Below, one piece after another: positions 4,832 to 38,576 of a DNA stretch of 43,315 bases. Source of the DNA: an uncultured Verrucomicrobiota bacterium (lineage in GTDB: Bacteria > Verrucomicrobiota > Kiritimatiellia > RFP12 > UBA1067); the NCBI GenBank assembly GCA_946610035.1, contig CAMOCC010000017.1:1-43315 (forward strand), written 5' to 3'. The stretch's first letter is position 1. Each line of letters starts with the position of its first letter. A model generated the notes under the pieces. The model was given only the letters and a program-made list of their open reading frames with translations. It had not been told where the DNA came from and did no database searches. The translations under genes were made by a program, and so were the position numbers.

Positions 4832-4844
4832 TTTCTTTTCTCCT

Positions 4845-5696: not shown

Positions 5697-5706
5697 ATCC
5701 ATATCC

Positions 5707-8567: not shown

Positions 8568-9937
8568 TTCACCTCCCAGATTCCGCACGGCCCGAAGAGT
8601 TCGCGCAGAAGTTCGTCCATCAGACCCAGCCTTTCAACGAGGTCAAGCCCGAAATAGCGGTTGCGCATGTACGGAACGCCGCGGCACGTGTCGCGAAACC
8701 GTTTTCGCGTGACGCCGATCTGCTCCGGCTCGTACGGTGCTCCGGCAAGGCGCAGCTTTTCCCGCACCTCTTCAAACGGCACGATCTGCGCCCTGAGACG
8801 CTCTGAAAGTTCCGGCCAGACGCGTTTGAACGTCGAAAGCTCCTCCCGCAGCCTCTCCGGCGGGGAATACTTCTTGGCCATCTCGCCCTCGGCGCGGCGG
8901 ATGTGCGCTGGACGGTTGCCGTAGACGGCGGGGAACGTCGCCTTCAATCCGTCGAACGTCGCCGGCCACGACGCGACCGCTTTCTCCACGTCGAGTTGCG
9001 ACAGATCGCGGCGGAGAAGGAACTCCAGCGCCTTCGTCGAGAAGAGCGTCCCGATCCCGACCTTGAACCCGTGCGAGACCGGCTGGCCGCCGAAGGACAG
9101 GTCCTCCATGTCCCAGTAGTGCGAGACCTGGTGCTCCGTGCCGCTCGCCGGACGCGACGATCCCATTGCCTGCATCGCAAAGCCGCTCATGACAAGCCCT
9201 TCGCAGAGCTTTCTGACTTCGCGCTCGTCGCCGGACGCGCAGCCGGACGGATTGGCGATCGCCGCCCTCAGCGGCTCCTGCACGAGCCGCCACGCGAGCG
9301 GGTGGATCGCCTCGGAGCCGATCGCGTCCGCGAGCATCCAGTCCGCCCCCGCCGGAATCTTGGCGATGAGATCGGCATAGCCGCTCGCCGTCATCTCGCG
9401 CGGCGCGGCCGCGGCAACGGCGCTGTCGACGATGCAGCCGAGCGGAGCCTTGCAGGAAAGAGTCTGCTTCATGCCGTCTTTCGTGATCGCCGCGCCGTAG
9501 GCCGTGTAGCCGTCCATCGATGCCGCAGTGCCGACGACCATATAACGGAGCCCCAGTTCCTCGCTCGCGCGCTTCGTCAAGTCATTGAGCGTTCCCGACC
9601 CGACCGCCACCGGGACAATCCCCCGTTCCCCGTTCCCCATTCCCCGTTCCCCTCTTATCGCCTCGCGCACTTCCTCGACCTTCGCGTAGGTGGCGTGGAA
9701 GTCCGACCCGTCTGGATTTACCACGTATTCGGCGACCTCCACGCCCGCACCCCTGAGACGCGCGACAACGCTATTGCCCGCAACCTCCCTTGTGCGCGGA
9801 TCTTCCACCACGACAGCCTTCCCAGCCGCCGGGAACAGCCTGCGGAACATTGCCGCCGCGCCGTCCGCCGCACCGGGGCCGACCTCGCACTCTTTGGTGT
9901 CCGTCGCGTTACGCAACGCTTCTTCCATCATGGACAT
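8564..9937 (-). CDS. sn-glycerol-1-phosphate dehydrogenase (AraM/EgsA family)
   Basis: A 457-residue member of the iron/zinc alcohol dehydrogenase-like family that interconverts glycerol 1-phosphate and dihydroxyacetone phosphate with NAD(P). Visible marks are the nucleotide loop GSGTLNDLTK (113-122), GTAASMDGYTAYGAA, and the metal ligands Asp189 (SGYADLIAKIPAGADW), His269 (SGTEHQVSHYWDM) and His289 (PVSHGFKVGIGTLFS). B. subtilis AraM is shorter, at about 394 aa. Residues 95-106 (RGERGMGNGERG) are encoded by a 7-bp repeat and lie just before the nucleotide loop. In archaea and Firmicutes the enzyme makes glycerol 1-phosphate for lipids; in this operon with a GlpT-type transporter and GlpA, oxidation of imported glycerol 1-phosphate is plausible but inferred. 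Start 9937 follows AAGGAGCGAAAAAT. Confidence 0.9.
   Translation of the reverse strand: MSMMEEALRNATDTKECEVGPGAADGAAAMFRRLFPAAGKAVVVEDPRTREVAGNSVVARLRGAGVEVAEYVVNPDGSDFHATYAKVEEVREAIRGERGMGNGERGIVPVAVGSGTLNDLTKRASEELGLRYMVVGTAASMDGYTAYGAAITKDGMKQTLSCKAPLGCIVDSAVAAAAPREMTASGYADLIAKIPAGADWMLADAIGSEAIHPLAWRLVQEPLRAAIANPSGCASGDEREVRKLCEGLVMSGFAMQAMGSSRPASGTEHQVSHYWDMEDLSFGGQPVSHGFKVGIGTLFSTKALEFLLRRDLSQLDVEKAVASWPATFDGLKATFPAVYGNRPAHIRRAEGEMAKKYSPPERLREELSTFKRVWPELSERLRAQIVPFEEVREKLRLAGAPYEPEQIGVTRKRFRDTCRGVPYMRNRYFGLDLVERLGLMDELLRELFGPCGIWEVK
9622..9652. repeat. 7-bp tandem repeat inside the glycerol-1-phosphate dehydrogenase gene
   Basis: Four heptads and a partial: CCCGTTC, CCCGTTC, CCCATTC, CCCGTTC, CCC. 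It encodes GERGMGNGERG in a surface loop position of the Rossmann-like half. Confidence 0.85.
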
Positions 9938-9977: not shown

Positions 9978-11342
9978 TCACAGGTATTTGTCAAGTACGA
10001 TGCATTTATTGAAAACATCGTGAACAACGATGCGTAGCTTACCGTTCTCGATAAAACCCTCCACAACCGTGGGAAACCTTCCAGCGTAGGGCTTTCCTTG
10101 GTCGACGCCAAGCTCCGGACCTCCGCCGACCACCTGCGCCCATCGACGCCCGGTCGTCGGCGGATCAAAGCGGAACTCGTGCCTGTGGCCGCAGACGGCA
10201 AGGCAGACGCCCGCCCTGTCCATTATCGGCCCCCAAAGTTCATTGCATTCGCGCGACCAGTAGGCGTAGTCGTGCGGATCTATCGCCACGCCGTCGTGCG
10301 GATAGTCGCCGGAAGCGGGATCCGCAAAGAGCGGTATGTGGCAGAACACGATCTTGTGTTTCGCCGCAGCGATGTCAGGACGCGCGAACTGCTCCTCCAG
10401 CCACTTTGCCTGCGCCCTTCTGTACGGCTCGAAATTCGCAAGTCCGAACCACTTCGGATGGGCGTCCGGCTTGTCCTCGCCGGTGTCGAGCCCGACAAGC
10501 GCCATGTCGCCCAGCCGCAGCGCGAAGTTCCACTTGAGGTCCCACTGGTCGCCGCGCCGCTCGGAAGGGTCGCGCGGCAGCACGACCTCCTCCTTCTTCG
10601 AAATCCAGCTGCCCCGGAAATCGTGGTTGCCGCTCTCGAAGAATACGGGTATGTCGGCGGACCAGTCGCGGTCTTCAACGGGCGGATTCAGGAACACCTC
10701 GACGGCGGTCTTTTTGTCCTGCGTCGTGTTGGTGGCGTCTCCGTTCCAGACAACGACGGACGGGGAAAGCTCCTTCACCTTGCGAACCGCCATCTGAAAC
10801 GGCTTCCACTGCGCATGCGTATCGTTTATCACGCAGAAGTGTGCCATCGCGCCAGCTCCCGGCGTAGTGAATGAATGCACACCGGAAACGACTGGTTCGC
10901 CAAGTTTGGCATCGTATATGTTGGAGTAGTCGGTGAAAGGCGTCGTGATGGTGCGGTAATAGTATTTCACGGCCGGTTTGAGACCCGTCAAACGGACTTG
11001 AATCGCATTCACATCGATCGGGACAAGTCCGTAGCCGCCGCTTTTCACAATCTTCGCGCCACGCATCTCAGGATTGTCCGCGTATTCGACGACACCCTTT
11101 GCGAGCCCCGAGACCGCCCAGCTCACGCCCATAGTCGTCTCGCCCGGTGCTTGCAGGCAGGGGCTGCCGACTTTCAGCGGCGCACCGCCGGTTCCGAGGA
11201 AAGGGTCTCGCTCGCGCGGCGCTTCCGCCGCAACAGTCTGCGGGGGTTCATCACCGCCGTAAAGCGCACCCGTCGCGAGCGCACCGCATGCTGTTATGAA
11301 CCCTCTTCTCGTCATACCGTCTTCATGTTCCCGTCCACTCAT
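9978..11342 (-). CDS. Purple acid phosphatase-like metallophosphoesterase, Tat-exported
   Basis: A 454-residue secreted phosphoesterase. The N-terminus carries a twin-arginine signal (MTRRGFITACGALATGAL, residues 10-27). A fibronectin-like N domain (about 55-160, ending KPAVKYYYRTIT) precedes a calcineurin-type metallophosphatase domain. Metal-binding blocks are VINDTHAQ (Asp174, His176), WNGDATN (Asp202), ESGNHDFRG (Asn239, His240), FCHIPLF and VCGHRHEFRF. The combination resembles purple acid phosphatases. It would remove phosphate monoesters or diesters outside the cytoplasmic membrane, and so may act on phosphate groups of the same polymer or on released glycerol phosphate; the substrate is inferred. 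Start 11342 follows GTAGGAGGAAAGAAT, an excellent ribosome binding site; an in-frame ATG 18 codons upstream has none. Gaps to its neighbours are 37 and 40 bp. Confidence 0.85.
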   Translation of the reverse strand: MSGREHEDGMTRRGFITACGALATGALYGGDEPPQTVAAEAPRERDPFLGTGGAPLKVGSPCLQAPGETTMGVSWAVSGLAKGVVEYADNPEMRGAKIVKSGGYGLVPIDVNAIQVRLTGLKPAVKYYYRTITTPFTDYSNIYDAKLGEPVVSGVHSFTTPGAGAMAHFCVINDTHAQWKPFQMAVRKVKELSPSVVVWNGDATNTTQDKKTAVEVFLNPPVEDRDWSADIPVFFESGNHDFRGSWISKKEEVVLPRDPSERRGDQWDLKWNFALRLGDMALVGLDTGEDKPDAHPKWFGLANFEPYRRAQAKWLEEQFARPDIAAAKHKIVFCHIPLFADPASGDYPHDGVAIDPHDYAYWSRECNELWGPIMDRAGVCLAVCGHRHEFRFDPPTTGRRWAQVVGGGPELGVDQGKPYAGRFPTVVEGFIENGKLRIVVHDVFNKCIVLDKYL

Positions 11343-11379
11343 ATTCTTTCCTCCTACCTTATATCCGAAAGACAGCGCC

Positions 11380-13230
11380 TTATTGGTCATTTTCACTCTC
11401 CTTTCCGCCCAAACGAAGAATCCCGTCCGGCGTTGGAATCTCAGCTTTCAAGTTCCCGCAACCCGGCAGGGGTCGATGCGACCATGTTCGCCAGCCGTCG
11501 GCGGTAGGCCGGATGCCCAGACCTTCCGAAACGAAGATGAATGCCGGCCATGCGCTCCAGACGTGACAAAGACTCTTCGCCCACGGCCGTCCGTAGAATG
11601 CGTATCGCCCATCACCAGTCTCGTTCGGGTCGTAGCTTTCCCAATACGTCGTCGCGCCATTGTCGAGCATGCCGCCGAATATCCGCTCGAGTCCCAAGAA
11701 AAATGCGTCTGCATGTCCCGTCCGCGCCAGCGCCACCAATTCCCAGCCGAAGACGTAGGGCGTCCCGACAGGCGGCAGACGACCCTGGGCAAGCTCGTCG
11801 CCGATCAGGGCCGACTGACGGTCGTCGGCAACGCCGAAGACCACCGCAAAGGCGTTCGCCTGCCGGCCGAAAACCGCCGCATCCGTAGGGTCGGCCCTGT
11901 AGAGACCGCGCGCCTCGTCCCACGCAAGATTGTTCAAGCTCTCGCGGACCTTTGCGGCCAAGGCGCGGTAGTCGTCCGCCTGCGGATCGCCTACGCGGTC
12001 CGCCAGTCGCGCCGCCGCCTGCAGCGATCCATACCATATCATCTGCAGCGCCGTATTTGACTTCGGCTTCGCCCAATCGATAAAGGCCCAATCGAGACCG
12101 CGCACGACAAAACCCGTCTCGTCCGTGCGGGACATAAGGTCGCCGATGCGCGCCTTGATCCGCCACCAGCGGTCCCGGAGAAACTGCGCATCCCCGAAAT
12201 AAAGCTGGTAGAGGTCGTGCGAGACAACCGTCCACATCGAATACGTTACGATTCCATTGACATCGCCTTCGTAGGCGTCCATGACAGATAAAGTCCGCCG
12301 CGCAATTTCCGCGTCGCCATAGACGTATGCATCCGCCATGAGAGACACGGTCAAATCGCCTCCCCACGGCAGGCGGTCGCGCTTGATGCCGTCCACCAAG
12401 AAGTCGTTCGAGCACAGCGCCAGCGTCCGTTCGCCGACTTCGGCCATCTTCCGCCATCGGGCGTTGTCCGTAACGATCCGGCCCTTCACGGGACGCCGCC
12501 GTCCGACAGGCACGACTTTGACGTTCGTCACGTCGGATGCAAAGCGCAGATACCGGAATGCGAGCGCATGACGCGTCCGCCAGCAGCCGTCCGACACTTC
12601 GTCCATCGTCGCGTCATACTCGAAATCCTCCGGCTTTTCCGCCAGCATCTCGGGGATGGACTCGCCGACGAAGAGCCTCGGCTCTGCATTGGCCCGACAC
12701 TCGACGTACGCTAATTGTTCCGCGAGCGCATCGTACCAGCCGTTCGTCGCCACAAGCCCGGAGAAGGAGCGGTCCACCGGCAGCCGCTCGCGGTGCGGAG
12801 GCACCGGCGCGTCTGGATACGCGGCGACCGGACGCCAGCTACCGTCAAAGACCCGCGCCTCCCAGTTCGTCTCCGCAGAACGGATCGCCCCGCCGCCCAT
12901 CAATCCGCCGTCGACCGTCACATAACGGCGTCCCTCGGCGGAATCGTAGTGCGTTCCGGAAATCCTGCGGAACGCCTCAGGCAGCGGGTCGTCTTCGGCG
13001 CACACGCGGCGGAACTCAGCCTTGTCGCGCAACGGCGGCAACACACCCGGATGATAGGCGTATAGACCCGCGCGCCGGACATCGTCCCGCATCTGATGGA
13101 CGCGGAAAAGCTCCATGTCCATCTGTGAATACAGCCATGCGGAAGAAAGGCCATGCGCGATCTCCTGCGGTTGCGCGAACACGCACGAGACCGGCAGCGC
13201 CAAGGCGATAAACATGCAATTCTTCTTCAT
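11380..13230 (-). CDS. GH78-like alpha-L-rhamnosidase
   Basis: A 616-residue secreted enzyme with a signal peptide ending near CVFAQ (residue 20). The core is an (alpha/alpha)6 barrel of the GH78 type. The family signature DGIKRDRLPWGGD (280-292) holds the acidic catalytic region. TTYWESYDP provides the second conserved Glu, and SLCHVWSAWPAFIFVSEGLGIRP matches the usual C-terminal block before the beta-sandwich. It is shorter than multi-domain GH78 enzymes (often 900 aa or more) because the N-terminal carbohydrate-binding modules are reduced. The likely reaction is release of terminal alpha-L-rhamnose. No clear Shine-Dalgarno sequence precedes the ATG (AACAAATGCGTTCACAATTG), unlike its neighbours, and the upstream gap holds a large hairpin repeat. 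Expression may therefore differ from the upstream genes. Confidence 0.75.
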   Translation of the reverse strand: MKKNCMFIALALPVSCVFAQPQEIAHGLSSAWLYSQMDMELFRVHQMRDDVRRAGLYAYHPGVLPPLRDKAEFRRVCAEDDPLPEAFRRISGTHYDSAEGRRYVTVDGGLMGGGAIRSAETNWEARVFDGSWRPVAAYPDAPVPPHRERLPVDRSFSGLVATNGWYDALAEQLAYVECRANAEPRLFVGESIPEMLAEKPEDFEYDATMDEVSDGCWRTRHALAFRYLRFASDVTNVKVVPVGRRRPVKGRIVTDNARWRKMAEVGERTLALCSNDFLVDGIKRDRLPWGGDLTVSLMADAYVYGDAEIARRTLSVMDAYEGDVNGIVTYSMWTVVSHDLYQLYFGDAQFLRDRWWRIKARIGDLMSRTDETGFVVRGLDWAFIDWAKPKSNTALQMIWYGSLQAAARLADRVGDPQADDYRALAAKVRESLNNLAWDEARGLYRADPTDAAVFGRQANAFAVVFGVADDRQSALIGDELAQGRLPPVGTPYVFGWELVALARTGHADAFFLGLERIFGGMLDNGATTYWESYDPNETGDGRYAFYGRPWAKSLCHVWSAWPAFIFVSEGLGIRPTADGWRTWSHRPLPGCGNLKAEIPTPDGILRLGGKESENDQ

Positions 13231-13372: not shown

Positions 13373-14398
13373 CTATCGCACCAGATCGTAGACGCGTACG
13401 TAGTCCACGAGGAACTCGTCTCCTGCGGCGGCAGCTGCATCCAGCTCCGGAACCGGCATGCCTGTCATGCGGTCGTTGCGGTACCACTTGGCCTCGGTCG
13501 TGAGAAGGACAAATTCCTCCGTCTGCGAAACCGCCTCGCCTTCGCCCTGGCCGACCTTCGGCCCGTGCTGTCTGCCGTCGATGAAGAACGTGTAGCCGTC
13601 CGGCTCCCACAGCATGCCGAACACGTGGAACTGCGTTTCATCGAGCTTGACGGAATTCGGGCCGTTGAACGCCTCCGGCGTCACATCCTTCGGACGCCTC
13701 GGGACGCAGAACCCGAGATAGTCCGCACCGTAGCCGTTCGCGTGGAAGTAGTGCGGTATCACTTCTCCGACTTCAAACGATTCCATGATATCGTGTTCGA
13801 TGCCGGCCAAGCGCGGGTCGAGCGAACAACCCTGCATGGGAGTCTGCATCCAGAACGCCGACCACCATCCAGGCATCTGCTGGAGGCGGCAGCGGCATTC
13901 GTAATAGCCGTAGCGGTGCGCGAACTTCGCCTTCTCGCGCTTCGGAAGCGGCCAGAAGCCCTTGGGATTGTCCTCGTGGGGAACGTCCCACACGAGCTCA
14001 CCCGTCTGGAGCTGGGGCGAGACGAACTGTCCGTCCGCCTTCTTGACGAGCTTCAGGTGAAGAAGCCCGTCCTTCACTTCGACCGCGTTGTCCTCGGGCG
14101 TAGCGAACCAGTAGGCGCGCTGTCCCCAGAAATTCGTGCGGTACGACCATTTCGATTCATCCAGCCGGTCGCCGTCAAACTCGTCCGACCACGCCAGCTT
14201 GAACGTCTTGCCCTCCGGCAGAAGCGACGGCCGCGGCACGGGACGGCCAGGCGCCAAATCCCGAAGCGTCTTCAGCGCTTCGGCGGGGACCGGCGAAAAT
14301 CCTTCTCGTCCGGCCGCGTCCCCAGATGCGCCCAGCACCGATAAAGCGGCGAGAACCGCAAGTGCCAGGCTCGCCCTAATTTTGATCCGTTCCGTCAT
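13373..14398 (-). CDS. GH16 family endo-glycosidase (beta-glucanase/galactanase type)
   Basis: A 341-residue secreted beta-jelly-roll enzyme with a signal peptide (about residues 1-30, LALAVLAALSVLGASGDAAG). It opens the catalytic domain with LAWSDEFDGDRLDESKW and carries the family active site GIEHDIMESFE, with nucleophile Glu201, Asp203 and acid/base Glu206 in the E-x-D-x-x-E (beta-bulge) spacing. RYGYYECRCRLQQMPGWWSAFWM and WEPDGYTFFIDG are also typical. GH16 enzymes cut internal beta-1,3/1,4 linkages in glucans or galactans; agarases, porphyranases and laminarinases all share this motif, so the substrate is open. As the only clear endo-acting enzyme of the operon it may generate oligosaccharides for the exo-enzymes. 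Start 14398 follows AAGGAGACGAAAA and overlaps the stop of the upstream gene (ATGA). Confidence 0.88.
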   Translation of the reverse strand: MTERIKIRASLALAVLAALSVLGASGDAAGREGFSPVPAEALKTLRDLAPGRPVPRPSLLPEGKTFKLAWSDEFDGDRLDESKWSYRTNFWGQRAYWFATPEDNAVEVKDGLLHLKLVKKADGQFVSPQLQTGELVWDVPHEDNPKGFWPLPKREKAKFAHRYGYYECRCRLQQMPGWWSAFWMQTPMQGCSLDPRLAGIEHDIMESFEVGEVIPHYFHANGYGADYLGFCVPRRPKDVTPEAFNGPNSVKLDETQFHVFGMLWEPDGYTFFIDGRQHGPKVGQGEGEAVSQTEEFVLLTTEAKWYRNDRMTGMPVPELDAAAAAGDEFLVDYVRVYDLVR

Positions 14399-16578
14399 TT
14401 TTCGTCTCCTTGTCTTCTTTTTCTTCCCGCAGCAGAATAGTCCCACCGCCGGAAACCCAGTTTAAGCGCCGGTGATGTCGGCTTGAGGCGGAAATCGTTG
14501 TTGGCCGCATCGACAAACTGCGGATCGGCGAACGATCCATCCTTTTCGAACCCCAGCTGCGTCCATGCCGCCCAAGTCCCGCCGCCGATTGTCGCGGCGC
14601 TTTCGCCGCGCACGTCGAACCAGAGGTTGTTTGACCAGTCGCCCTTGACCTTTACCGCCTGTTCGTTCGCAAGGGCGCATGTCGAAACAAGAACTATGTT
14701 GTTCTTGAAATCAAGTGTCGGCTCGATTCCCTCTTTGTTCCGGACGACAAAGAGCGAACGGACGGCGTCGCCGATTCTGTTCCACGCGAAGATGTTGTTC
14801 CTGACCGTGCACCCGCGTCCGAAATGCTGCATAAAGCCGCCGTCTGTCGTATTCCAACAGAGATTGCGCTCCGCGACGATACCTTCCGATCCCTCGTCAA
14901 AGTAGATTCCCCAGCCGCCGTAGGAATAACTGCGGACATCATGGATGACATTGTCGTGAATCGTCGTCCCGAAACTTGTGCCGAGGGTATAGACGCCGCC
15001 CATGTCGCTCATCAATCCCTTGCCGATGTTCCAGATGCGATTGTATGCGATTTCGTTGCGCTGCGCGACGCTTCCGCCGTAGCCCCATGCCAGCCCGGCG
15101 GAAATGGCCGAGTAAGCGCAATCCGTCATATCGCAATGGACGATGCGGCAGTCGCTGGCATGCGTGAGCGTCACGGCGATGCCGGCCGGAACATAGCATC
15201 CAATTCCCTTGAAGAGACAGTTTTCAACCGTGTTGAATGCGACCGAGCGCGGCGCAAGCGTTGTGATTTCGCGACGTGAAAGCGTCTCACCCGGCGCGAC
15301 ATGCGGATTTTCAGATCCCATCTTGACACCTCCCGCGCCAATATCCGCGAATGTGCAGTTCTTGACGGTGTTGGAAATGCAACCGTCAATCAGGCGCATA
15401 GCAAACGCGCCGAGATGCTGAAATCTGCATCCGTCCCAGACGATGCGCCGCGCACCGGTGGCCGTAACGCATCCGACGGTCTCAGGCAACGTCTGTCGCG
15501 TGTAGAACTGCGCGGGGACCTTTTCTGCGGAAACGGCATTCTTCGCCCCTGGTTTCTCGGCGTAGTCCGTGAACGCAAACGACAGGTTCTTGAATTCGAT
15601 GTCATGCACCGGATCGCCGTCATGATCGCCACGCAGAACGACAAGCACGCCGCCGGACGCCGTCGGCGCGATCGCCGACAGGGAACCGATCGTCTCGCCC
15701 GGAAGCGGACGATAGAGGACACGCCCGGCCTTGGCGTCATAGAACCATTCCCCCGGCGCGTCGAATGCGCCGCGCACATTTTCAAACCAGACAATCGTCT
15801 CTTTGGCCGTCCACGCGCGATTGCCGCCGACGCTCTCCCTGCGGCTTGTCTCGACGGACATCGTTTCGGGATCGACACGAAGGATCCCCTGACGCGCCGC
15901 ATTCCATTTGTGGACGGCGCAGAGCGAAACGTACGGCAGATCTTCCGCCGCCGTCGCCACGACCTTGGACATCGCCGCGTTTGTCGAAGCGATGCGCTGT
16001 ACGTAGGAAACCGTTCCGTCAACCGCATTCGTCACGACTCGTTCTTCGGACAAACTCAGTTTCATGCAGCCGCGCGCCGGATCGTCCGGCACGGCATCCG
16101 GCGCACGGGCGCGTTCGGCGCGCCGTCCGTTCACCCAAAGCTGCTCGAACCAGACAGGCTTTCCGTCTGCGCCCTTCGGAATCGGTGCAGACCACACGCC
16201 GCCCCCTTCGTTCCGCCAGCCCTTCAGCCGCTCGCCGCCGGCAAAAACGGGGCCGCCTTCGCCAATCCAGCGGACGGGCGAAGAGCGCGTCCCGGAGTCG
16301 GCGGCCGTGAAAACAAGCGGTGCTTCAAGAAAATACGCGCCACGCCGTATATGCACCGTCCACGCAGACGCATCGCCCTTCGCCTTCGCCTCGCGGATGA
16401 CGAGAAGCGCCTCGCGCGGCGACATGCCGTCCGGAGCAACCGTCAGTTCACGCGTTTCGGCACGCGAGGCAGCGACGCACGGCCGCGCAAGCGCCAGGCA
16501 CGAAACCGCGATCGCGGCCCCGGCCGCACGAATCTTCAACGGCATCGCGCGCGTCGGCGCTCCTTTCATCCTGGACAT
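14395..16578 (-). CDS. Right-handed beta-helix glycosidase, GH141-like
   Basis: A 727-residue secreted protein. A signal peptide lies at about residues 12-37 (IRAAGAAIAVSCLALARPCVAAS). The body has an N-terminal DUF1565-like start (VAPDGMSPREALLVIREAKA, HIRRGAYFLEAPLVF) and a long parallel beta-helix with DMGGVYTLGTSFGTTIHDNV, SYGGWGIYFDEGSEGIVAERN and ADPQFVDAANNDFRLKPTSP. This overall plan and these blocks resemble GH141 enzymes, whose characterised members include an alpha-L-fucosidase acting on rhamnogalacturonan II and a xylanase. The exact activity cannot be read from sequence. A homologous helix is fused to GH29 at 27981-31028. Start 16578 follows AAAGGAGCGAGAAAT; MKGAP three codons later is an alternative, also preceded by a weaker site. 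Confidence 0.65.
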   Translation of the reverse strand: MSRMKGAPTRAMPLKIRAAGAAIAVSCLALARPCVAASRAETRELTVAPDGMSPREALLVIREAKAKGDASAWTVHIRRGAYFLEAPLVFTAADSGTRSSPVRWIGEGGPVFAGGERLKGWRNEGGGVWSAPIPKGADGKPVWFEQLWVNGRRAERARAPDAVPDDPARGCMKLSLSEERVVTNAVDGTVSYVQRIASTNAAMSKVVATAAEDLPYVSLCAVHKWNAARQGILRVDPETMSVETSRRESVGGNRAWTAKETIVWFENVRGAFDAPGEWFYDAKAGRVLYRPLPGETIGSLSAIAPTASGGVLVVLRGDHDGDPVHDIEFKNLSFAFTDYAEKPGAKNAVSAEKVPAQFYTRQTLPETVGCVTATGARRIVWDGCRFQHLGAFAMRLIDGCISNTVKNCTFADIGAGGVKMGSENPHVAPGETLSRREITTLAPRSVAFNTVENCLFKGIGCYVPAGIAVTLTHASDCRIVHCDMTDCAYSAISAGLAWGYGGSVAQRNEIAYNRIWNIGKGLMSDMGGVYTLGTSFGTTIHDNVIHDVRSYSYGGWGIYFDEGSEGIVAERNLCWNTTDGGFMQHFGRGCTVRNNIFAWNRIGDAVRSLFVVRNKEGIEPTLDFKNNIVLVSTCALANEQAVKVKGDWSNNLWFDVRGESAATIGGGTWAAWTQLGFEKDGSFADPQFVDAANNDFRLKPTSPALKLGFRRWDYSAAGRKRRQGDEK

Positions 16579-16592
16579 ATTTCTCGCTCCTT

Positions 16593-19500
16593 TCATTTGC
16601 CGCACCCGGCGAATTCCGGCAACAGTTCGAACAGCACAAGCGGATCGTCCGTGGCGAAATTGTCGAAACCGAGCGACCAAATGCGACGCAGGACGTCTTT
16701 GTTCGCGCCTTCCGTCCATGTGAACGCCTGTACGGTTATGCCCTTGGAGTGCAAAAGTTCGATGGACTTCTTCAGGCATTCCGTCGAAGGGCAAAACGGA
16801 TCGGGTTTCGTAAGATCCGTCCGGATATGCAGCTGTATCTGGCTGATGCCCTTCCAGTTCGCATCTTCCATCTCGCGGAACGTCCGTTCCAGGAACTCAT
16901 CGGCCCTCGCGACGGACTCGGCCGAGTTGTCCGTCGGCCACGTGCCGAGCCACACCATGCCGAGGCCGTCCGGCACAACCTCCTGCCACCGCGCCATCAG
17001 ACGGAAATCCGGCGAAGTATAGTAGATCTGCTTCTCCACGCCATGCTTCCGGGCCATCTGCGCCATCATCTCGGGCGGCGCCCCTTTTTCGTCCAGGTAG
17101 AGTATTCTATCGGGACGGCCAGCCATCGCGGCGAAGATCGAATCCATCGTCGCGATGCGCGTCGTTGCATACTCTTCGCCCATATACGAGCCGACATCGA
17201 CGTCCTTTATTTCGTCCCATGCCATGTCCTTGATTTCGCGGGTCTGGAGTTCGCCGGGAATGCCGCGCGCAATGCGCTGGAGCGTCGGATCGTGGAAAGC
17301 GATTGCGACGCCGTCCTTCGTCAGCCGCGCATCCGCCTCCGGCGCGACGCCGTGCCCCCAGCACCAGAGGAACGTCTCGAGCGAATTGTCGGGCCGCGTA
17401 TCGCGTCCGCCGCCGCGATGCACCTGGCAACGGCAAAGCCCCTGTGCGCGAGTCTCGGGAGCGCCGACAGAGGCTCGGCCCGTTTTCCTTCTGAGCCACG
17501 CGACGAACCCGCCTTTCGGTTTGATTTCAAGGTCGAGCGATCCGTCCCGTCCGACGAGGCGCCGCGAAATCGCATATCCGTCCGGCCGGTCGGTATCATC
17601 GGCAAACGCCGTCATGTCATATTCGCCTTCGCCGAAGAAACCGAAATCGATTCGCAGTTTTCTCGCTTCGGCGCCGTTTTCGACGGCGATGAACCAATCG
17701 GACCCTTTGCGCTTTGCTACCGCGACGCATTCGCCGATTTCCGAGCCGGGAAGGACAATCGTCTCATCATAGATCGGCTTCAGCGCCTTTATGATTTCAA
17801 CCGCAGGACTTTCGAGATAGTTCTGCGGATAGTCACCGAGACAGAGGAATGGAGCGGAAAAGATGATCCCCTGGGCAAGCTCCCTCGCCCGCGTATAGCC
17901 GGCAAGCTCTCTCTCCTCGAAGACGACGGGCGTGTAGTCGGCGTGTCCCTGAACGAGACGGTTGAACGGCAGGATGCAGTCGTGTTCCGGCGGAAGAACC
18001 CTGTTGTAGCGCGTGATGTGCCACTCGTGACCGCGGATCGCCTCGCGCGCGACCTCGTGCGGCCACGTCTTCTCGCGACCGCTCGGCTTTACGCAGCCGT
18101 GGTAGTCTGTCATGAGCCCGAATTCAAGCGTATCTGCAAGGGCCTCCTCATACCATGCCATCTGCTCGCAGGAAGGCGCGGGATGGAAATCAATCTTTAT
18201 GCCTACCGCACCCGACGCCTTCACCTTCGCAAGATACTCGCGACGCGTTTCGGGATTGCGCATTTCCTTGGAGTCGACCCACATGAAAGTCTCGACACCG
18301 ATCGACTTCCCGTAGTCAATCCACTTCTTGAGGCACGCCCACTGGTCCATGTCGCCATCGCGCCAGTCGCGCCAACCATCGTCGATGAGATAGTACTCGA
18401 AGCCCAGCGCCTTCGTCCTGTCGTACCACTCCTTCTGTTCCCCGTATTTCGGCGCGCCAGCGGGTAGCCACTGCCAGACGGCGCGGCCGGGGCGCACGAA
18501 CTTCGCCGCCTTCGCCGCAACCGCTGCGGACGGGGCGGGGCAAAGCCGCCGCACAATGTCGCTCGTCGCAAGCGTCTGCAAATCCTTCGCAACAAGCATC
18601 ACGCGCCAGGGCGTCGTATCCGCGCCCTTCTGGTCGAACCCGTCCGGGTCGTTCACGTAGAATACGCCAAAGCGTCCCTCGCCAAGATACTTCGCCGCAG
18701 AATCTGTGTAGCCGACTACATTCGCCTCGGTAATCAGGCGATACGTCCCGTCCACGAGCTTCGCCGTCACGGGGAAATTCATCACCGTGCCGGCGGGAAT
18801 GTCGCTCACGAGCGAGGAGCAATACGGCTTTTCATAGTCCATGCCGTATTCCTGATACCACACCTTCGCGTCGGCAGGAAGCGTCCAGACCGTTTCTTCG
18901 CGCTCGACGCGCCTCTCGCCCTCCGGCAGGACGTACCGCACCGCCCAGCCGTCGGCAAAAACGCGCCGCTCGGTCTCGCGGATGGTCGCGCCGTTGACGA
19001 CAACGCCCTTGGCGTCAAGCGTCGCCGTCTGGAATTCCGGCGGGGATGAGAGGATCAGCCCGTCTTCGGTGATGGCGTTCTCGAAGCGTATCGTCCAATT
19101 CTGCGGTGCTTCTGCGGAAACCTCGAAAGGTCTGTCCTTCCATACCGAATTGGCGGATTCGGTATACAGCCACTCGCGGCGCGCGATCTTGCGGTCTGCG
19201 AGTTTGCGGCCGCCCTTCACGATTGAATCGGCAAAAGCCGCAATTTCCGGCGGATCGCCCTCCGGCGGATGCCCGTGCTTCATGCGGAGTTTGATGGAGA
19301 AAAGAGGATTCCCTGCGGCGAACGCAGTTTCCTCGAACGAATCGAGCGGGAAGAAATAATCGTTCGTCCCGGTGCACCAAAGCGTCGGTATCCGGCAGTT
19401 CTTCACGTATTCGACTGGATTCCAGAGCGTCTCCCACAGCTCGCCGATTTCCGGCGCGAAGACGGAATGCCGCCGCAGGTTCCCGCATCCGTAAACCGGT

Positions 19501-20108
19501 ACGGCGAATGCGAAACGCGGATCCGCCCCGCAGACAATGGACGTGAGAAAACCGCCCCACGATATTCCGGTCACGCCGATCCTCGATGCATCGACTTCGG
19601 GGAGATTCCTCAGGAACGTATGCGAGCGGATGACGCATTCGATCGCGTGATATACCCACTGCTCCTCCGGCGGCAGAGTCTCCTCCTCATAGCGTCCCCA
19701 GCCGTTTGGCCCGGACCACTCGTGCCGCGGATGTTCAGCCGTATGGTTCTTCTCTCCGGGGATGCCGCCGCAATTGTCCATCGCGATCGCGGCATATCCG
19801 CGGTCGTTCCACAGCTTCACCCATGTGTGGTAGGCCGTTCCGTATCCGCCGTGCACGAGCACGATGCCCGGCACCTTCTTCTCCGCCGTCGCGCCTTCGG
19901 GCAGAGAATAGTAGGCGAAGAAACGCGTGGGCTTGCCGTGCCACGGCACATTCTCGATCCACACGGCCTTAACGCCGTTCGTGGCCCGTTCCGGGATATC
20001 CCAGCTCCGGACAGCGTCCGGAATCGGGAAGTCCACCGTCTTTGCGACCGCCGCAAGCGCGACCACCGCCGCGAACGCGCAAGCCGCCACAGTGATTTTC
20101 CTTCTCAT
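16593..20108 (-). CDS. Three-module fusion: alpha/beta hydrolase - GH97 - glycerophosphodiester phosphodiesterase
   Basis: A single 1171-residue open frame with a signal peptide (residues 1-22). Residues 40-300 form an alpha/beta hydrolase of the acetyl-xylan-esterase/peptidase S9 type: IVLVHGGYG, nucleophile Ser183 in GISWGG, Asp250 in TGTNDYF, and a His in KHGHPPEGDP. Residues 320-875 are GH97: WYQEYGMDYEKPYC, YYLIDDGWRDW, GIKIDF (Asp640, the nucleophile position in retaining members), TDYHGCVKPSGREKTWPHE and LVGRDGSLDL in the C domain. Residues 893-1165 are a complete GDPD: HRGGGRDTRPDNSLETF (His897, Glu911), EADARLTKDGVAIAFHD (Glu924, Asp926, His939) and YLDEKG. Together they would deacylate, remove alpha-galactose or alpha-glucose, and cut a glycerophosphodiester. 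Start 20108 follows AAAGGTGCAGCGA; the ATG overlaps the GH2 stop. I know of no described enzyme with this architecture. Confidence 0.85.
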   Translation of the reverse strand: MRRKITVAACAFAAVVALAAVAKTVDFPIPDAVRSWDIPERATNGVKAVWIENVPWHGKPTRFFAYYSLPEGATAEKKVPGIVLVHGGYGTAYHTWVKLWNDRGYAAIAMDNCGGIPGEKNHTAEHPRHEWSGPNGWGRYEEETLPPEEQWVYHAIECVIRSHTFLRNLPEVDASRIGVTGISWGGFLTSIVCGADPRFAFAVPVYGCGNLRRHSVFAPEIGELWETLWNPVEYVKNCRIPTLWCTGTNDYFFPLDSFEETAFAAGNPLFSIKLRMKHGHPPEGDPPEIAAFADSIVKGGRKLADRKIARREWLYTESANSVWKDRPFEVSAEAPQNWTIRFENAITEDGLILSSPPEFQTATLDAKGVVVNGATIRETERRVFADGWAVRYVLPEGERRVEREETVWTLPADAKVWYQEYGMDYEKPYCSSLVSDIPAGTVMNFPVTAKLVDGTYRLITEANVVGYTDSAAKYLGEGRFGVFYVNDPDGFDQKGADTTPWRVMLVAKDLQTLATSDIVRRLCPAPSAAVAAKAAKFVRPGRAVWQWLPAGAPKYGEQKEWYDRTKALGFEYYLIDDGWRDWRDGDMDQWACLKKWIDYGKSIGVETFMWVDSKEMRNPETRREYLAKVKASGAVGIKIDFHPAPSCEQMAWYEEALADTLEFGLMTDYHGCVKPSGREKTWPHEVAREAIRGHEWHITRYNRVLPPEHDCILPFNRLVQGHADYTPVVFEERELAGYTRARELAQGIIFSAPFLCLGDYPQNYLESPAVEIIKALKPIYDETIVLPGSEIGECVAVAKRKGSDWFIAVENGAEARKLRIDFGFFGEGEYDMTAFADDTDRPDGYAISRRLVGRDGSLDLEIKPKGGFVAWLRRKTGRASVGAPETRAQGLCRCQVHRGGGRDTRPDNSLETFLWCWGHGVAPEADARLTKDGVAIAFHDPTLQRIARGIPGELQTREIKDMAWDEIKDVDVGSYMGEEYATTRIATMDSIFAAMAGRPDRILYLDEKGAPPEMMAQMARKHGVEKQIYYTSPDFRLMARWQEVVPDGLGMVWLGTWPTDNSAESVARADEFLERTFREMEDANWKGISQIQLHIRTDLTKPDPFCPSTECLKKSIELLHSKGITVQAFTWTEGANKDVLRRIWSLGFDNFATDDPLVLFELLPEFAGCGK

Positions 20109-23100
20109 TTCGCTGCACCTTTCACTTTCGCCTCAAGACGCTTTTCCTCGTCCCAAAGGTCTGGCTGGTTGTAGTCCGCTTCGAGCGACCGCCGGCATGT
20201 CGCAAGCGCCGCTTCCGCATCCCCCGCCTCCTCGTAGAGCGCAGCGATGGAGCGATAGATGCCGAGATCGACGGGCTTTGCGCGGATTGCCTTTTCGTAA
20301 AGCGCAATCGCCTTGGCGCGCTCGCCCGCCTCCTTCGCAGCCATAGCCTCGGCGACGAACCGCTCGTGGAGTTTGCCGCGTTCCTCCTGTGACAGGGCGG
20401 AATACGCCGTCTCGCGCGCACCGAGCGTCAACGCAAACACCCCGACTACGGCGCAGTTCTTCTCGCCGCGCAGGAACTCGACCGTCTTGACGACCTTCTT
20501 CGGATCAGGATTGACCCAGCTTGTCGAATAGATGTTCATCTTCGCGAACAACCCCGACTTCGCAGTCAAGGTTCGCAGCGCGGTGACAGTATCCGTCTCG
20601 CCGGAGAAATCAGGCATCTCAGAAACCCAGTCGAACAAGTTCACGCCGCCGGACACTTCAATCTGCCGCGTACTTCCGTCCGCATAATTGACGCGCACGG
20701 TATAGTCGCGCTTGCCCTTCCCGACCCACGCGCCGGTCGAGAGCCAGTTGAGCGTGTCGAACTTGCGTCCGATTTCAACCGTTACATTGTCCTTGCCCGC
20801 CTTGCAGAACTCGCTCTTCAGCGTGAACGCGCAGGGACCCGCCATCTTCACATCATACGGCACCTGCCCTACCCAGCCGCGTTCTCCCGCAAAAATCAGC
20901 GGCAGGCACTGCTCGGGTCCCTGGTCGTTCCACGACCCCTTGCCGTCACTCCCCTTTTCGTCCGCGAGAGTGCGGTCTAGATACGGCGATAGATCTACTG
21001 AATCGTAAAAAAGGTTCTTCGGGATGAACGGACGCGAAAAGCCCTTCACCCTAACGCCGGCGTTCCCGAGAATCGTCGCCCAGAGGCGCGCCGCCTGCTT
21101 CGAAGCATCTTTCGCGTTGACCGACGGATCGAGCGTCGTAAACACAAAATTGCCGCGTCGGACGACATACGCAGGATACGTAAGCACGCCCTTCTCCACG
21201 ACGAACTCCTCCGCAGCCAGTTCCGCAAAAGCGGTCTTCTCGTCGGAGAACTTTTTTCGCCACATCATGTCCTGGTTGGTGAGTCCGTCGAGGATCGGGT
21301 CGCTCGATATGCGCACCGCGCGTCCGCTCCACGACTTCGCGCCGACTGAACGCGTCGCCATTCCCGCCGCTTCGCACGGTCCAAATACTAAGACATTCTT
21401 GCCGGACGATGCAAGGGCCTTGAGGTCGTCCTTGGAAAGTGGCGCCTTGCCGTCCACGAATATGGCGCTGTATTTGCCGATGTCTGCAATGCCGCCGAAA
21501 TCCAGTTCCACGCCGCAGTTCTTCACCAGCGCATCGGCGACAGGAGGGCGCGTGTCCCCACGCGCCGTCAGGAACAACGCCCGGCCAGATGAGTTTGTGC
21601 TCTTGTAGGCGGCCATGTTCTCCAGAAGTTTCGCGGCGACTGGGTTGACGTCCGGCTCCAACACGAGCCGCGAGTAGAGGAAGCATCCCTTCCCGTATGG
21701 AACTTCGACAAGCGCGGAATAGACTAGCCCCGACGCGCCGCCGAACTCGAGGATCGTCTTGGCGTTTCCGCCCGACGGCTTGGCAAATGCACCGTCGCAG
21801 GCGATGGACTTCGGAAAGAAATACCGCAAATCCTCCTTCCTGAAACCCTTGAGAATCTGATGGCGGGGACGGAACGTGCGCAGGATTGCGCCGGACTGGT
21901 CGGATACGGACGGCAGTTCCGGCAGCCACTCGGGATAGTCATTCCGCGCGAGGACGACAATCGTCTCCCCCGCCGCCGCGCGGTCAAGCAGCCGCTCGGA
22001 AAGGACGTCGCGCGCTCCGAATACGTTAGCGTAGCGGCGTCCGCCAGAAGCGGACTTTGCGGCGACCGCGATGTCGAGCGTCTTTTCGCAGAGGCCCTTA
22101 AGTCCGAAGACAAGCTTGTATTCACCGGGACGCGGCGTCTTGAAGGAAATCTGCTTTCTGAGGAATGCAGACGTATCCACGTCGATCCGCTCATCATTGG
22201 ACGAAGCGACAGCCTTGCCGTCCGCGTCCTCAAGCCGCCAGAACCATGTCACCGCAGCGGGACGCCACCTGTCGTAGAATACGTTGACGTCGTACTTCAC
22301 TTCCGTCCCTTCGTAGAAACGCGAATAGCGCTGGATGTTCACTACGTCAATCTCCGGCGAAACGCGCCATTCCGGGTCGATGTGATACCAGCGCCATGGC
22401 GTCCAAAGCGTCACGTCTGCATCGCGATGCCCGCGCACAGCCTCGACTTCCGTCTCGATGTGCCACTTGTCGCAGTATCTTGGATCGTTGAAAACCTCGT
22501 CGCCCGCAAGGCGCGTCCATCCGAACGGCGGATTGAAGAAGAAGTCCCAGCACGTCTCGTTGATGAAAATCGGCTTCTCGCCCCATTTGGCAGGCGAATC
22601 GGCGTAGATGTTGCAGACCTTCAGGATCTGCCCGGAGGGAATCGCCTGACCTTGCACGAAAGGCTTTTCGATATCGCGCCAGTAGAACGAATACGGCATG
22701 TAGCACCCGGCCTTGCGCAAGGAGAGCAGCTCGACGGGATAGTGCGTCGAGATTATGTTGTTCTCGCCGCGCAGATCGAGGTCGCAGCCCGTTTCGGCGA
22801 AGTGGAACGGATCGAACGCGCGGATGTTCCTCAGCGCGGACTGGACTGGCCCCAGATTGCGGTCTTCGCTCTCGGCGTAGTATTCGTTCGTGATATACCA
22901 CGTCATGACGGACGGATGGTTGCGCAGGGTCGCGGCGAGGCAGCGGTCGTTGTACTCCTTCCACGCCCAGAACTCCTTGTTCGCGCTCTTTTCGGGAGAT
23001 GGATTCGCAATCGTCGCGAAACCTACGGCGCAGGGGATGCCCGCCTCATCGCAGAAGTCCAGAAACTCAGACGAATTGTAGACGTGCCTGAAGAACTTGA

Positions 23101-24595
23101 CCCCGCGCAGCTTGTTCTCCCAGATGATGTCGCTATTGAACTGCCGCTTGCAGCGCTGGTCGAAGTTCCACCCCCATGTACTGATGAATGCCCGCGCATC
23201 GCCCTTCACGCGGTGGCCGTTCCACATGAGCGCCATCCCGTCCGCCCAGAACTCGCGGAACGCAAAACGCGTCAGTTTTTCGTCCACGACATTCCCCTTC
23301 GCATCGACAAGTTCCGTCACCAGTTTGAGGAGCGGGAAATTGAACGGACCCCACAGCGGAGGATCCTCCCACTTGGCTTCGTCCACAAATGAAAGAAGTT
23401 TCTCGTTGCCGCGCCAGACGGAGTTGCGGACGGTAAAGCCGTCTGGATACGCCGCCTTTACGCGGATCGACTTCTCGCGGAACGACGTCACCACCGAAAC
23501 TCGGCCGATCGCGTTTTCGCCGCGCGATTCCAGCGCAAGCTCCGAAACCGCCGCGATGCGTCCCGGCATTCCGCTTGGATACTTCTTTTCGTCCGCTCGC
23601 TTCGCGTCAATGGCAAATTCGTTGACCTCTCCGGGACGAATGAACTTCGTTATGTCCGCTTCGACATCGCCCGCGAAGTTGCCGTCCTCGCCGAACGTCG
23701 CCGCCTCTTCGCCGTTTACGTAAAGCGTCGCCACACACGAGACGCGAAGCGCCTTGAAATAGACGCGCTTTCCGGCGAACGATGCAGGAACCGCGAACTT
23801 GCCGACGAACTTTTCCGCGCCGTCTTTCACCTCGGCGGGCATCACGGCCTTCTTGCCCGAGACGCGCGTCCACCCCTCGTTCATCCTCAGAAGCTCGCGA
23901 TGCGGCGACTTTGCATCCGCAAGCCGCGCGAAGACGCGATAGACCTTGCGGCCCGAACCGTCCGTGAAGCCGACCGCCGCGCGGAACTGCCCCGAGCCGT
24001 TGTCCTCGTAGGGGACATCGAGTTTAAGCGTCCTTCCCAGTTCGACGTCCCTGCGATCCACTTCTGCGAGCGTCTTGCCGTAGTAGTCCGTCACCTTCAC
24101 GCGGAGCCGACCTTTGACGGGAGAGCCAAGGTAGCTGTTGAGCGTCACGGCCACGTTCGACGCGCCGAAATCTGCCTCCGCTGCGAAAGCGACTTCCGGG
24201 TCGAGCGCCATGTTCGTGAATACACGCTGCGGCGTGTAGTCGAGCGGCTTTTCGGCAAGGGTTATCCTCGTCCACGGAGTCTGTTTGTCGACACGGAACG
24301 CCTCGCCCAGTTTGACTTCCACCGGACGCGACTCGAGCGTCATCCGCTCTTTGCCATTGTCGTCCAACCACGGTCCTCCGCGCACGAACTCGATGCGCCG
24401 GCCCTCGTGCCAGACCTTGACGCGGGTGGTCGCGTCGTCACCCGAAAACCCTTCAAGGCGAACATAGTACGCCCCCGGCTTGACGCCGTCTGTCATCAAA
24501 AGCCCGTCCTTAGCCGCGCTACGCTCGAGCGTCCAATCCGCCCGCGCCGTGCACACGGCGGCGATGCAGACGAGAGATGCGATTACTTTGTGCAT
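20105..24595 (-). CDS. Large GH2-like beta-glycosidase with amidotransferase-like and TPR regions
   Basis: A 1496-residue secreted protein (signal peptide MHKVIASLVCIAAVCTARA). Residues 260-350 look like the GH2 sugar-binding jelly roll (KALRVSCVATLYVNGEEAATF). A TIM barrel spans about 455-760. It carries acid/base Glu571 in HPSVMTWYITNEYY and probable nucleophile Glu680 in KPIFINETCWD. Beyond it are an immunoglobulin-like part (about 780-850) and a glutamine-amidotransferase-like region (about 870-1010, LVEVPYGKGCFLYSRL). A further beta-rich section follows, and TPR-like helices lie near 1415-1475 (AKAIALYEKAIRAKP, AEAALATCRRSLEADY). Typical GH2 enzymes are 600-1100 aa, and TPR units are unusual on them. 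Likely exo-acting beta-galactosidase or beta-glucuronidase type; which one is not decided. Start 24595 follows GGGAGGAGACAAGCC and overlaps the GH127 gene by 13 bp. Confidence 0.75.
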   Translation of the reverse strand: MHKVIASLVCIAAVCTARADWTLERSAAKDGLLMTDGVKPGAYYVRLEGFSGDDATTRVKVWHEGRRIEFVRGGPWLDDNGKERMTLESRPVEVKLGEAFRVDKQTPWTRITLAEKPLDYTPQRVFTNMALDPEVAFAAEADFGASNVAVTLNSYLGSPVKGRLRVKVTDYYGKTLAEVDRRDVELGRTLKLDVPYEDNGSGQFRAAVGFTDGSGRKVYRVFARLADAKSPHRELLRMNEGWTRVSGKKAVMPAEVKDGAEKFVGKFAVPASFAGKRVYFKALRVSCVATLYVNGEEAATFGEDGNFAGDVEADITKFIRPGEVNEFAIDAKRADEKKYPSGMPGRIAAVSELALESRGENAIGRVSVVTSFREKSIRVKAAYPDGFTVRNSVWRGNEKLLSFVDEAKWEDPPLWGPFNFPLLKLVTELVDAKGNVVDEKLTRFAFREFWADGMALMWNGHRVKGDARAFISTWGWNFDQRCKRQFNSDIIWENKLRGVKFFRHVYNSSEFLDFCDEAGIPCAVGFATIANPSPEKSANKEFWAWKEYNDRCLAATLRNHPSVMTWYITNEYYAESEDRNLGPVQSALRNIRAFDPFHFAETGCDLDLRGENNIISTHYPVELLSLRKAGCYMPYSFYWRDIEKPFVQGQAIPSGQILKVCNIYADSPAKWGEKPIFINETCWDFFFNPPFGWTRLAGDEVFNDPRYCDKWHIETEVEAVRGHRDADVTLWTPWRWYHIDPEWRVSPEIDVVNIQRYSRFYEGTEVKYDVNVFYDRWRPAAVTWFWRLEDADGKAVASSNDERIDVDTSAFLRKQISFKTPRPGEYKLVFGLKGLCEKTLDIAVAAKSASGGRRYANVFGARDVLSERLLDRAAAGETIVVLARNDYPEWLPELPSVSDQSGAILRTFRPRHQILKGFRKEDLRYFFPKSIACDGAFAKPSGGNAKTILEFGGASGLVYSALVEVPYGKGCFLYSRLVLEPDVNPVAAKLLENMAAYKSTNSSGRALFLTARGDTRPPVADALVKNCGVELDFGGIADIGKYSAIFVDGKAPLSKDDLKALASSGKNVLVFGPCEAAGMATRSVGAKSWSGRAVRISSDPILDGLTNQDMMWRKKFSDEKTAFAELAAEEFVVEKGVLTYPAYVVRRGNFVFTTLDPSVNAKDASKQAARLWATILGNAGVRVKGFSRPFIPKNLFYDSVDLSPYLDRTLADEKGSDGKGSWNDQGPEQCLPLIFAGERGWVGQVPYDVKMAGPCAFTLKSEFCKAGKDNVTVEIGRKFDTLNWLSTGAWVGKGKRDYTVRVNYADGSTRQIEVSGGVNLFDWVSEMPDFSGETDTVTALRTLTAKSGLFAKMNIYSTSWVNPDPKKVVKTVEFLRGEKNCAVVGVFALTLGARETAYSALSQEERGKLHERFVAEAMAAKEAGERAKAIALYEKAIRAKPVDLGIYRSIAALYEEAGDAEAALATCRRSLEADYNQPDLWDEEKRLEAKVKGAAK

Positions 24596-32404: not shown

Positions 32405-32439
32405 TGCATTGTTCCTTTATTGTCGTTTTTTTGTCTCAC

Positions 32440-32539
32440 GAGGCAATTTCAAAATCTCCGCGCATTTGGTAGGGTCACGCGTCCCGCGTGACCGCGGACG
32501 CGCGGGACGCGCGTCCCTACTGGGTTTTGAAATTGCCTC
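32440..32539. repeat. 100-bp REPIN-like element
   Basis: Outer 15-bp perfect inverted repeats GAGGCAATTTCAAAA (32440-32454) and its complement (32525-32539) enclose GTAGGG/CCCTAC (32469 and 32515). Inside these lie two GC-rich hairpins, GTCACGCGTCCCGCGTGAC (32474-32492) and GGACGCGC against GCGCGTCC (32496-32516). It sits just upstream of the first operon gene. Confidence 0.85.
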
Positions 32540-32558
32540 AGATAGATAATTCGTTGCC

Positions 32559-32643: not shown

Positions 32644-32695
32644 TGACGAGTCGTAGGTTTTTATGATAAACTACGCGGCAAAAATTGGAGAAACA

Positions 32696-38562: not shown

Positions 38563-38576
38563 CCTCTCCCCGCACA

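Follow-up and report, generated by a model that had tools for sequence, protein, structure and literature searches.

Why should one reading frame encode an esterase, a glycoside hydrolase of family 97 (GH97) and a glycerophosphodiester phosphodiesterase (GDPD), and what might such a protein feed on? The question arises from the window, our term for the whole 43,315-nt stretch analysed here (contig CAMOCC010000017.1, or C17, of GenBank assembly GCA_946610035.1), which belongs to an uncultured Verrucomicrobiota bacterium of the class Kiritimatiellia with a genome of 3.03 Mb that is 88% complete. An original prediction, made from the sequence alone, had recognised the three enzymes in one 1171-codon frame without giving its strand, and had proposed that they were joined for a single substrate carrying glycerol phosphate. 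The frame proved to be a single ATG-to-stop frame on the minus strand (16593..20108). At a rough probability of 55%, we read its product as an exported protein with three working hydrolases that feeds glycerol phosphate catabolism; the activities, their order of action and a common substrate are predicted from sequence and gene neighbourhood.

A single frame encodes an esterase, a GH97 glycosidase and a GDPD

The 1171-aa product begins with a signal-peptide-like stretch, followed by an alpha/beta-hydrolase esterase of the AXE1/DLH type, the GH97 glycosidase and the GDPD. A domain search of the translation, which had been suggested along with the original prediction, placed AXE1/DLH, GH97 and GDPD matches in this one frame, each above its Pfam cut-off. 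The esterase module (aa 62–263; 19320..19925, minus strand) matched three families with similar scores, namely AXE1 at aa 62–206 (29.2 bits, cut-off 21), DLH at aa 72–263 (29.0 bits, cut-off 21) and Peptidase_S9 at aa 163–256 (30.1 bits, cut-off 22.6), with no single best family; its PDB match was the acetyl xylan esterase 6agq (2.5e-09). Residue conservation was counted over an alignment of 13 esterase, 15 GH97 and 25 GDPD rows, the query included. The proposed Ser183 and Asp250 were kept in all 13 esterase rows, as was His278, which supplies the histidine that the prediction had left without a number and completes the candidate triad; His280 was kept in 12 of 13.

The GH97 module (aa 380–872; 17493..18971, minus strand) comprises GH97_N at aa 380–523 (79.3 bits, cut-off 25.3, covering only positions 92–227 of the 229 in the profile), the catalytic GH97 domain at aa 536–775 (140.4 bits, cut-off 32.5) and GH97_C at aa 780–872 (72.7 bits, cut-off 25). 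Asp640, rightly named beforehand as an active-site residue, was kept in 15 of 15 rows and Glu695, which had been overlooked, in 14 of 15, and the two align with the nucleophile Asp and the acid/base Glu of PDB entry 3a24. We take Glu695 to correspond to the acid/base Glu470 of the Bacteroides thetaiotaomicron GH97 alpha-galactosidase, and the numbering and roles of the Bacteroides catalytic residues are likewise assumed here. The equivalog model for GH97 retaining alpha-galactosidases (NF053844) scored 164.9 of 800 bits, below its cut-off, and alpha-galactosyl residues are therefore only a candidate substrate of this module.

The GDPD module (aa 897–1156; 16641..17420, minus strand) matched PF03009 over positions 1–242 of its 244 (45 bits, cut-off 23.6). 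Four of the residues proposed for its active site (His897, Glu924, Asp926 and His939) were kept in all 25 rows, but the fifth, Glu911, was Glu in 20 of 25 and is no catalytic position. Asp1006, which had also escaped the prediction, was kept in 25 of 25 rows and aligns with Glu119 of 2pz0, presumably a metal ligand if the GDPD ligand roles are as we assume; by this alignment it is probably the third metal ligand. All 25 clade rows have PDN in place of PEN and Asp in place of the third Glu ligand.

When compared with PDB entries, the fusion matched GH97 alpha-galactosidases first, then GDPDs and then the acetyl xylan esterase. The top entries, the Bacteroides GH97 alpha-galactosidase 3a24/5e1q and the GH97 enzyme 5xfm (E 5.2e-37 and 5.6e-35), have no esterase or GDPD attached, unlike the window protein; 5xfm, deposited as an alpha-glucosidase, is presumably a beta-L-arabinopyranosidase/alpha-galactosidase. 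The bacterial GDPDs 3mz2 and 2pz0 (GlpQ/UgpQ type) have the His pair and the Glu-x-Asp motif in common with the window GDPD. The third ligand of the latter is Asp, as in 3mz2, rather than the Glu of 2pz0, and it differs from both in being joined to glycosidases and linked to a gene resembling glycerol-1-phosphate dehydrogenase (G1PDH). The architecture is a variant of multimodular carbohydrate enzymes, and a literature search, conducted mostly at listing level and with subscription papers largely outside its scope, found no description of an esterase-GH97-GDPD fusion. For structurally coloured bacteria, one report describes a sugar locus that contains GH97 and GDPD as separate genes and not as one polypeptide (PMC9131120).

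Export of the fusion protein is suggested by its N terminus (aa 1–22; 20043..20108, minus strand), in which MRRK precedes a hydrophobic stretch and an AVA motif that we take, by a customary rule, to be the signal-peptide cleavage site. The hydropathy peak of the whole protein lies here (15-residue windows from residues 4–9) and the GH97-GDPD joint is without any hydrophobic stretch, so a single signal peptide would serve all three modules. The start codon shares ATGA with the stop of the upstream gene (20105..24595, minus strand). That gene, which is also the upstream neighbour in the related genomes G053, G042, G019 and G014, encodes a large protein whose weak matches to GH2 and TPR fall short of the Pfam cut-offs; the ATG of the next gene, preceded by GGAG, stands 14 bp beyond the fusion stop. 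Codon-position GC is coding-like throughout, with a third-position GC of 0.62–0.83 in the 100-codon windows computed and a minimum (0.62–0.66) in the windows over codons 751–900, before and at the GH97-GDPD joint. A chance open reading frame is ruled out by the profile scores and the homologues. The close relatives are Kiritimatiellae or Verrucomicrobia genomes from metagenomes, one of them originating from yak reticulum.

A GDPD clade repeatedly paired with G1PDH-like genes

Orthologous GDPDs (71–74% identical) stand alone in G027, G002 and G045 and begin with a signal-peptide-like stretch of their own; the one of G045 is divided between two frames. In these three genomes a G1PDH-like gene begins 39–47 bp after the stand-alone GDPD, and HAD, GlpO-like or GlpT-like genes come after the pair; the same GDPD-G1PDH-like pair was found in G310, G312, G267 and G317. 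Across 58 genus genomes, a G1PDH- or GlpT-like gene lay within 5 kb of 16 of the 34 clade GDPD matches, compared with 14 of the 103 other GDPD matches (Fisher p = 1.7e-4, relatedness uncorrected), and the clade count rose to 17 of 34 at 12 kb. These counts, which draw on 32 G1PDH-like and 76 GlpT-like places, omit a 36-residue GDPD fragment (G004:C67) and merge split genes (the GDPD of G045, the G1PDH of G027 and G029, and the GlpT of G002).

A tree of 49 GDPD domains placed those of the window and G019 as sisters (support 100/98) within a 10-row clade, the other eight rows of which are stand-alone. With the fused GDPDs nested among stand-alone ones, the fused state would most simply be derived, and the GDPD would have lost its signal peptide in the process. 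The well-supported branches require a minimum of five switches into or out of the stand-alone state; deep joins are unsure because of long-branch rows (G303, G007). A recognised carbohydrate enzyme shares the frame in 14 of the 49 domains, a figure that overstates the fusion rate since long-frame matches were chosen on purpose. The partner is GH2 in seven and GH29 in two, and there is one domain each with SASA, an AXE1-type esterase (GDPD first), a glucuronyl-esterase type, GH97-GH127 and the window's own esterase-GH97. Split, truncated and unfetched clade matches are omitted from the 49, and the frames of relatives were read from stop to stop, so that their start codons are not fixed. Frames of 491–621 aa in G018, G281, G315 and G302, which have no recognised N-terminal domain, were counted as alone, and the N-terminal stretches of unknown kind in G009 (C151) and G094 (C54) were treated as unknown partners outside the 14. 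A draw of 288 genomes of the class contained 38 with a GDPD match at E <= 1e-40 (best eight candidates per genome). Beyond the fusion itself, the most surprising part of the analysis is the recurrence in this clade of both fusion to glycan enzymes and pairing with a G1PDH-like gene, in bacteria where no archaeal-type lipid synthesis was found.

Individual related loci hold further arrangements of these genes. In L112 (4100-7600, plus strand) a GDPD precedes an AXE1-type esterase that is a homologue of the window's, with another 390 or so residues that have no Pfam match, and in L117 (4013-6058, plus strand) a glucuronyl-esterase-type domain, presumably of family CE15, comes after the GDPD. A truncated separate GDPD in L067 (8439-8897, minus strand), 87% identical to that of the window over 93 residues, adjoins GH43, GH120-like and melibiase-like genes. 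SASA-type genes stand directly 5′ of a GH2-GDPD gene in L070, L071 and L114, and SASA and GDPD share a frame in G039. Finally, L085 (6055-7677, plus strand) carries a different GDPD in frame with a HAD-type hydrolase, with a G1PDH-like gene adjoining.

Module exchange around the GH97-GDPD joint

Among the matches listed, the esterase-GH97 parts of relatives are 87–96% identical to those of the window and continue differently at the C terminus, with GH16 in G053 and GH127 in G029 and G019. The window has its GH16-like gene separately (13373..14446, minus strand). In G042, GH97-GH127 occurs without the esterase, which is missing between a kept signal peptide and GH97, and in G035 a more distant esterase (72–77%) precedes a GH141-like beta-helix stretch that reaches the contig end. 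The G019 frame runs from GH97 through GH127 to a short GH29-GH120-like remnant and on to the GDPD; the esterase half (96% identical) stops at the edge of another contig, and the full module order in this genome is our reconstruction. The exact order esterase-GH97-GDPD was seen in the window only, again among the matches listed. A search for the architecture through the phylum, as the prediction had advised, found no second GH97_C-GDPD joint at E <= 1e-30 besides that of the window's own genome (1 of 387 genomes; best four candidates per genome, G019 not being among the rows listed).

The GDPD and the GH141-like gene after it form a block (14207..17456, minus strand) that is 98.3% identical over 3,250 bp to the G019 contig, which ends at the far side, and the adjoining GH97 sequence is 92.7% identical. 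This step in identity suggests that the block was exchanged recently. Next to it lies a 210-bp stretch (17457..17666, minus strand) with the GH97_C tail and the start of the linker, in which homology breaks at both ends and which is unlike the tail common to G053, G029, G042 and G019; the homology of these four closest relatives to the GH97 stops at 17666-17668. The top protein match of the stretch was 49% (G010), and no close match was found in the compared loci. Between the window and G019 the GDPD shows four synonymous and two non-synonymous codon differences (dN 0.003, dS 0.026), and residues 1–813 of the window compared with G053 gave a dN of 0.026 and a dS of 0.27; both fit purifying selection, the GDPD figure on very few changes. 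The GH97-GDPD joint is evolutionarily fluid.

A proposed route for glycerol phosphate

The fusion belongs to an extended series of carbohydrate-active genes on one strand (three GH29, GH120-like, GH43, GH127, GH2-like, the fusion, GH141-like, GH16 and GH78-like, the GH2 and GH120 matches being below Pfam cut-offs). This run terminates with genes, all on the minus strand, for a metallophosphoesterase-like protein (9978..11396), a G1PDH-like protein (8564..9925, in an open frame that reaches 10201), an 846-aa GlpO-like protein (6048..8588) with a glycerol-3-phosphate-oxidase-like DAO domain, a BFD-type [2Fe-2S] domain and a pyridine nucleotide oxidoreductase domain in a single frame, a HAD-IIA phosphatase-like protein (4845..5768) and an OPA-type organophosphate carrier (3569..5020). 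The glycerol-phosphate-type genes are 6.4–11.6 kb from the fusion, the G1PDH-like gene at about 6.4–6.7 kb and the carrier at 11.6 kb from the GDPD. The G1PDH-like protein matched Fe-ADH_2 with 99.5 bits (cut-off 28) and, as its best PDB entry, the glycerol-1-phosphate dehydrogenase 9h4x (6.2e-39); the best PDB match of the GlpO-like protein was the L-alpha-glycerophosphate oxidase 4x9m (6.9e-48), and the top NCBIfam model of the carrier was the OPA subfamily TIGR00881 (named PgtP; 320.9 of 407.75 bits). From the carrier to the metallophosphoesterase, the block is 82% identical to G053 across 7.9 kb.

In the route that we propose, the esterase would take off acyl groups, the GH97, acting with retention, would remove terminal alpha-galactosyl (or beta-L-arabinopyranosyl) residues, and the GDPD would cleave glycerophosphodiesters in that material or in material associated with it, yielding glycerol phosphate for import by the GlpT/OPA-like carrier. 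The G1PDH-like enzyme would then convert sn-glycerol-1-phosphate, and the GlpO-like enzyme sn-glycerol-3-phosphate, to dihydroxyacetone phosphate; because genes for both are present, both enantiomers may be taken. The GDPD itself would have started as a stand-alone, exported enzyme encoded by the first gene of a GDPD-G1PDH-(GlpO, HAD, GlpT) group, and would have lost its own signal peptide on being joined in frame to the GH97 C terminus. We infer that the G1PDH-like enzyme is catabolic and works in the oxidising direction. With PcrB/GGGPS not found in any of the 58 genus genomes (many of them incomplete, although 58 misses are hard to put down to incompleteness; 7 of 14 controls matched, five above cut-off), we judged a role in archaeal-type lipids unlikely, and the enzyme probably does not serve them.

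The idea that the substrate carries glycerol phosphate draws support from the neighbouring genes on the same strand and in relatives, but the candidates named in the original prediction (teichoic acid, capsule or lipid headgroup) are not told apart by them. The glycerol phosphate could come from lipoteichoic acid, from phosphatidylglycerol headgroups or from archaeal lipids, and the glycosidase set of the window leans, in our judgement, towards plant-like material. Wall teichoic acid contains sn-glycerol-3-phosphate and lipoteichoic acid sn-glycerol-1-phosphate, and the GlpQ of Bacillus subtilis is specific for sn-glycerol-3-phosphate, according to PMC7086022. GlpQ is, like the window enzyme, of the GDPD type and degrades a glycerophosphate polymer; in contrast to its sn-glycerol-3-phosphate specificity, the dehydrogenase of the window gives a hint of the opposite enantiomer, the lipoteichoic acid monomer (PMC7086022). 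The uptake of glycerol-1-phosphate by marine bacteria through GpxB/UgpB, reported in 2025, is on a similar theme of bacterial glycerol-1-phosphate use (PMC12718374). Those transporters belong to the PhnT and CUT1 families, whereas in the window, from a gut-type member of the Kiritimatiellae, the carrier is OPA-like and occurs together with a GDPD and glycosidases. 

A bolder version, which we consider doubtful, would have rumen-type Kiritimatiellae run a dedicated sn-glycerol-1-phosphate harvest. The fusions would attack glycosylated, acylated poly(glycerol-1-phosphate), that is, the lipoteichoic acid of gut Firmicutes, or the phospholipid headgroups of methanogenic archaea, the OPA-type carrier and a catabolic glycerol-1-phosphate dehydrogenase would lead the product into glycolysis, and the GDPD would be the stereochemical counterpart of GlpQ. 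If the proposed route is true, it would name enzymes for the gut consumption of glycerol-phosphate-decorated glycans or polymers, give bacterial glycerol-1-phosphate dehydrogenases a testable catabolic role where archaeal-type lipid synthesis was not found, and describe a lineage whose carbohydrate-active enzymes trade C-terminal catalytic modules among close relatives. Such trading would make the identification of substrates through comparison of module sets directly testable.

Several observations weigh against the proposed route. The dehydrogenase, oxidase and carrier are named by best match because their NCBIfam equivalog cut-offs were missed: PRK00843 by the G1PDH-like protein (149.4 of 413 bits), the type 2 glycerol-3-phosphate oxidase model by the GlpO-like protein (299.9 of 460 bits), and the GlpT model by the carrier (281.7 of 632.55 bits), which scores higher on the OPA subfamily named PgtP. 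Seventeen of the 34 clade GDPD matches have neither a G1PDH- nor a GlpT-like neighbour inside 12 kb, a contig end explaining some of them, and the window GDPD, which falls outside the 5-kb limit, does not contribute to the 16. Such neighbours are not special to the clade, since 14 of the 103 other GDPD matches have one as well, and the GlpT-like list takes in distant carriers of 25–29% identity. G053 has the glycerol-phosphate block, and no clade GDPD was found in this genome, which is 65% complete. Moreover, the module after esterase-GH97 is exchangeable: as it is GH16 or GH127 elsewhere, a substrate common to all three activities is not required.

Alternative explanations

This exchangeability leads to the alternative that survives best, which we regard as possible but on the doubtful side. 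Recombination in a packed run of secreted enzymes would repeatedly weld neighbours together in frame, and the GDPD would keep scavenging the glycerophosphodiesters of deacylated phospholipids, including phosphatidylglycerol, gaining only the shared signal peptide and no substrate in common with GH97. Such a history is in line with the different modules trailing near-identical esterase-GH97 parts, with the esterase missing behind the kept signal peptide in G042, with the GH29-GH120-like scar between GH127 and GDPD in G019 and with further multi-enzyme frames in these genomes. It also agrees with the stand-alone orthologue, which keeps company with glycerol-phosphate-type genes and has a glycosidase-like neighbour (melibiase/GH31-like) in G002 only, the upstream frames in G027 and G045 matching PATR repeats only. 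On the other hand, every recognisable frame partner of the GDPD clade is a carbohydrate enzyme (14 of 14, leaving aside two long N-terminal stretches of unknown kind), and one further frame joins a GDPD to an esterase of the window's type, with the order reversed. The claim that three activities were joined for one substrate is thus weakened by the continuations in relatives and partly upheld by the company that the clade keeps.

Less probable, and in our view unlikely, is a GDPD fold that cuts another phosphodiester; sugar-phosphate diesters of the agrocinopine kind and the GPI-type anchors of plant arabinogalactan proteins are phosphodiester substrates of this sort. The GDPD 1zcc, presumably from Agrobacterium, is among the PDB matches, the third metal ligand is Asp instead of Glu, and the GH29, GH127, GH43 and GH78-like genes at the locus suggest plant-type glycans, but the recurring linkage to G1PDH-, GlpO- and GlpT-like genes speaks for glycerol phosphate.

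An assembly join near 17450, which the original prediction had named as a danger, is unlikely, and an artefact joining two genes anywhere in 17450-17670 has very little in its favour: the homology of the four closest relatives does end there and the 210-bp stretch has no close match, but the longest exact word at the boundary shared with any of eight loci tested is 13 bp (no repeat that could mislead an assembler was found there, in these eight loci rather than the rest of the genome), the frame continues through both boundaries, G019 has the same GDPD and GH141-like block in frame with GH97-GH127, and even with a false first boundary the GH97_C tail would still continue into the GDPD.

Further multi-enzyme frames

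A second multi-enzyme frame of the window (27981-31307, minus strand; 1108 aa) encodes a GH29 fucosidase domain and, after it, a GH120-like beta-helix stretch; the scar between GH127 and GDPD in G019 is a remnant of a protein of this kind. Two long coding-strand frames (minus strand) without a Pfam match were noted at 37630-39183 and at 32417-34153, the first of them overlapping the GH29 gene at 38577-40538. Among the relatives, locus L044 of G044 (4700-7732, minus strand) combines an FAD-dependent oxidoreductase with GH97 in a single frame of 1011 aa, and locus L045 of G032 (4712-9472, plus strand) has a 1587-aa frame with two GH97 domains and a GH29.

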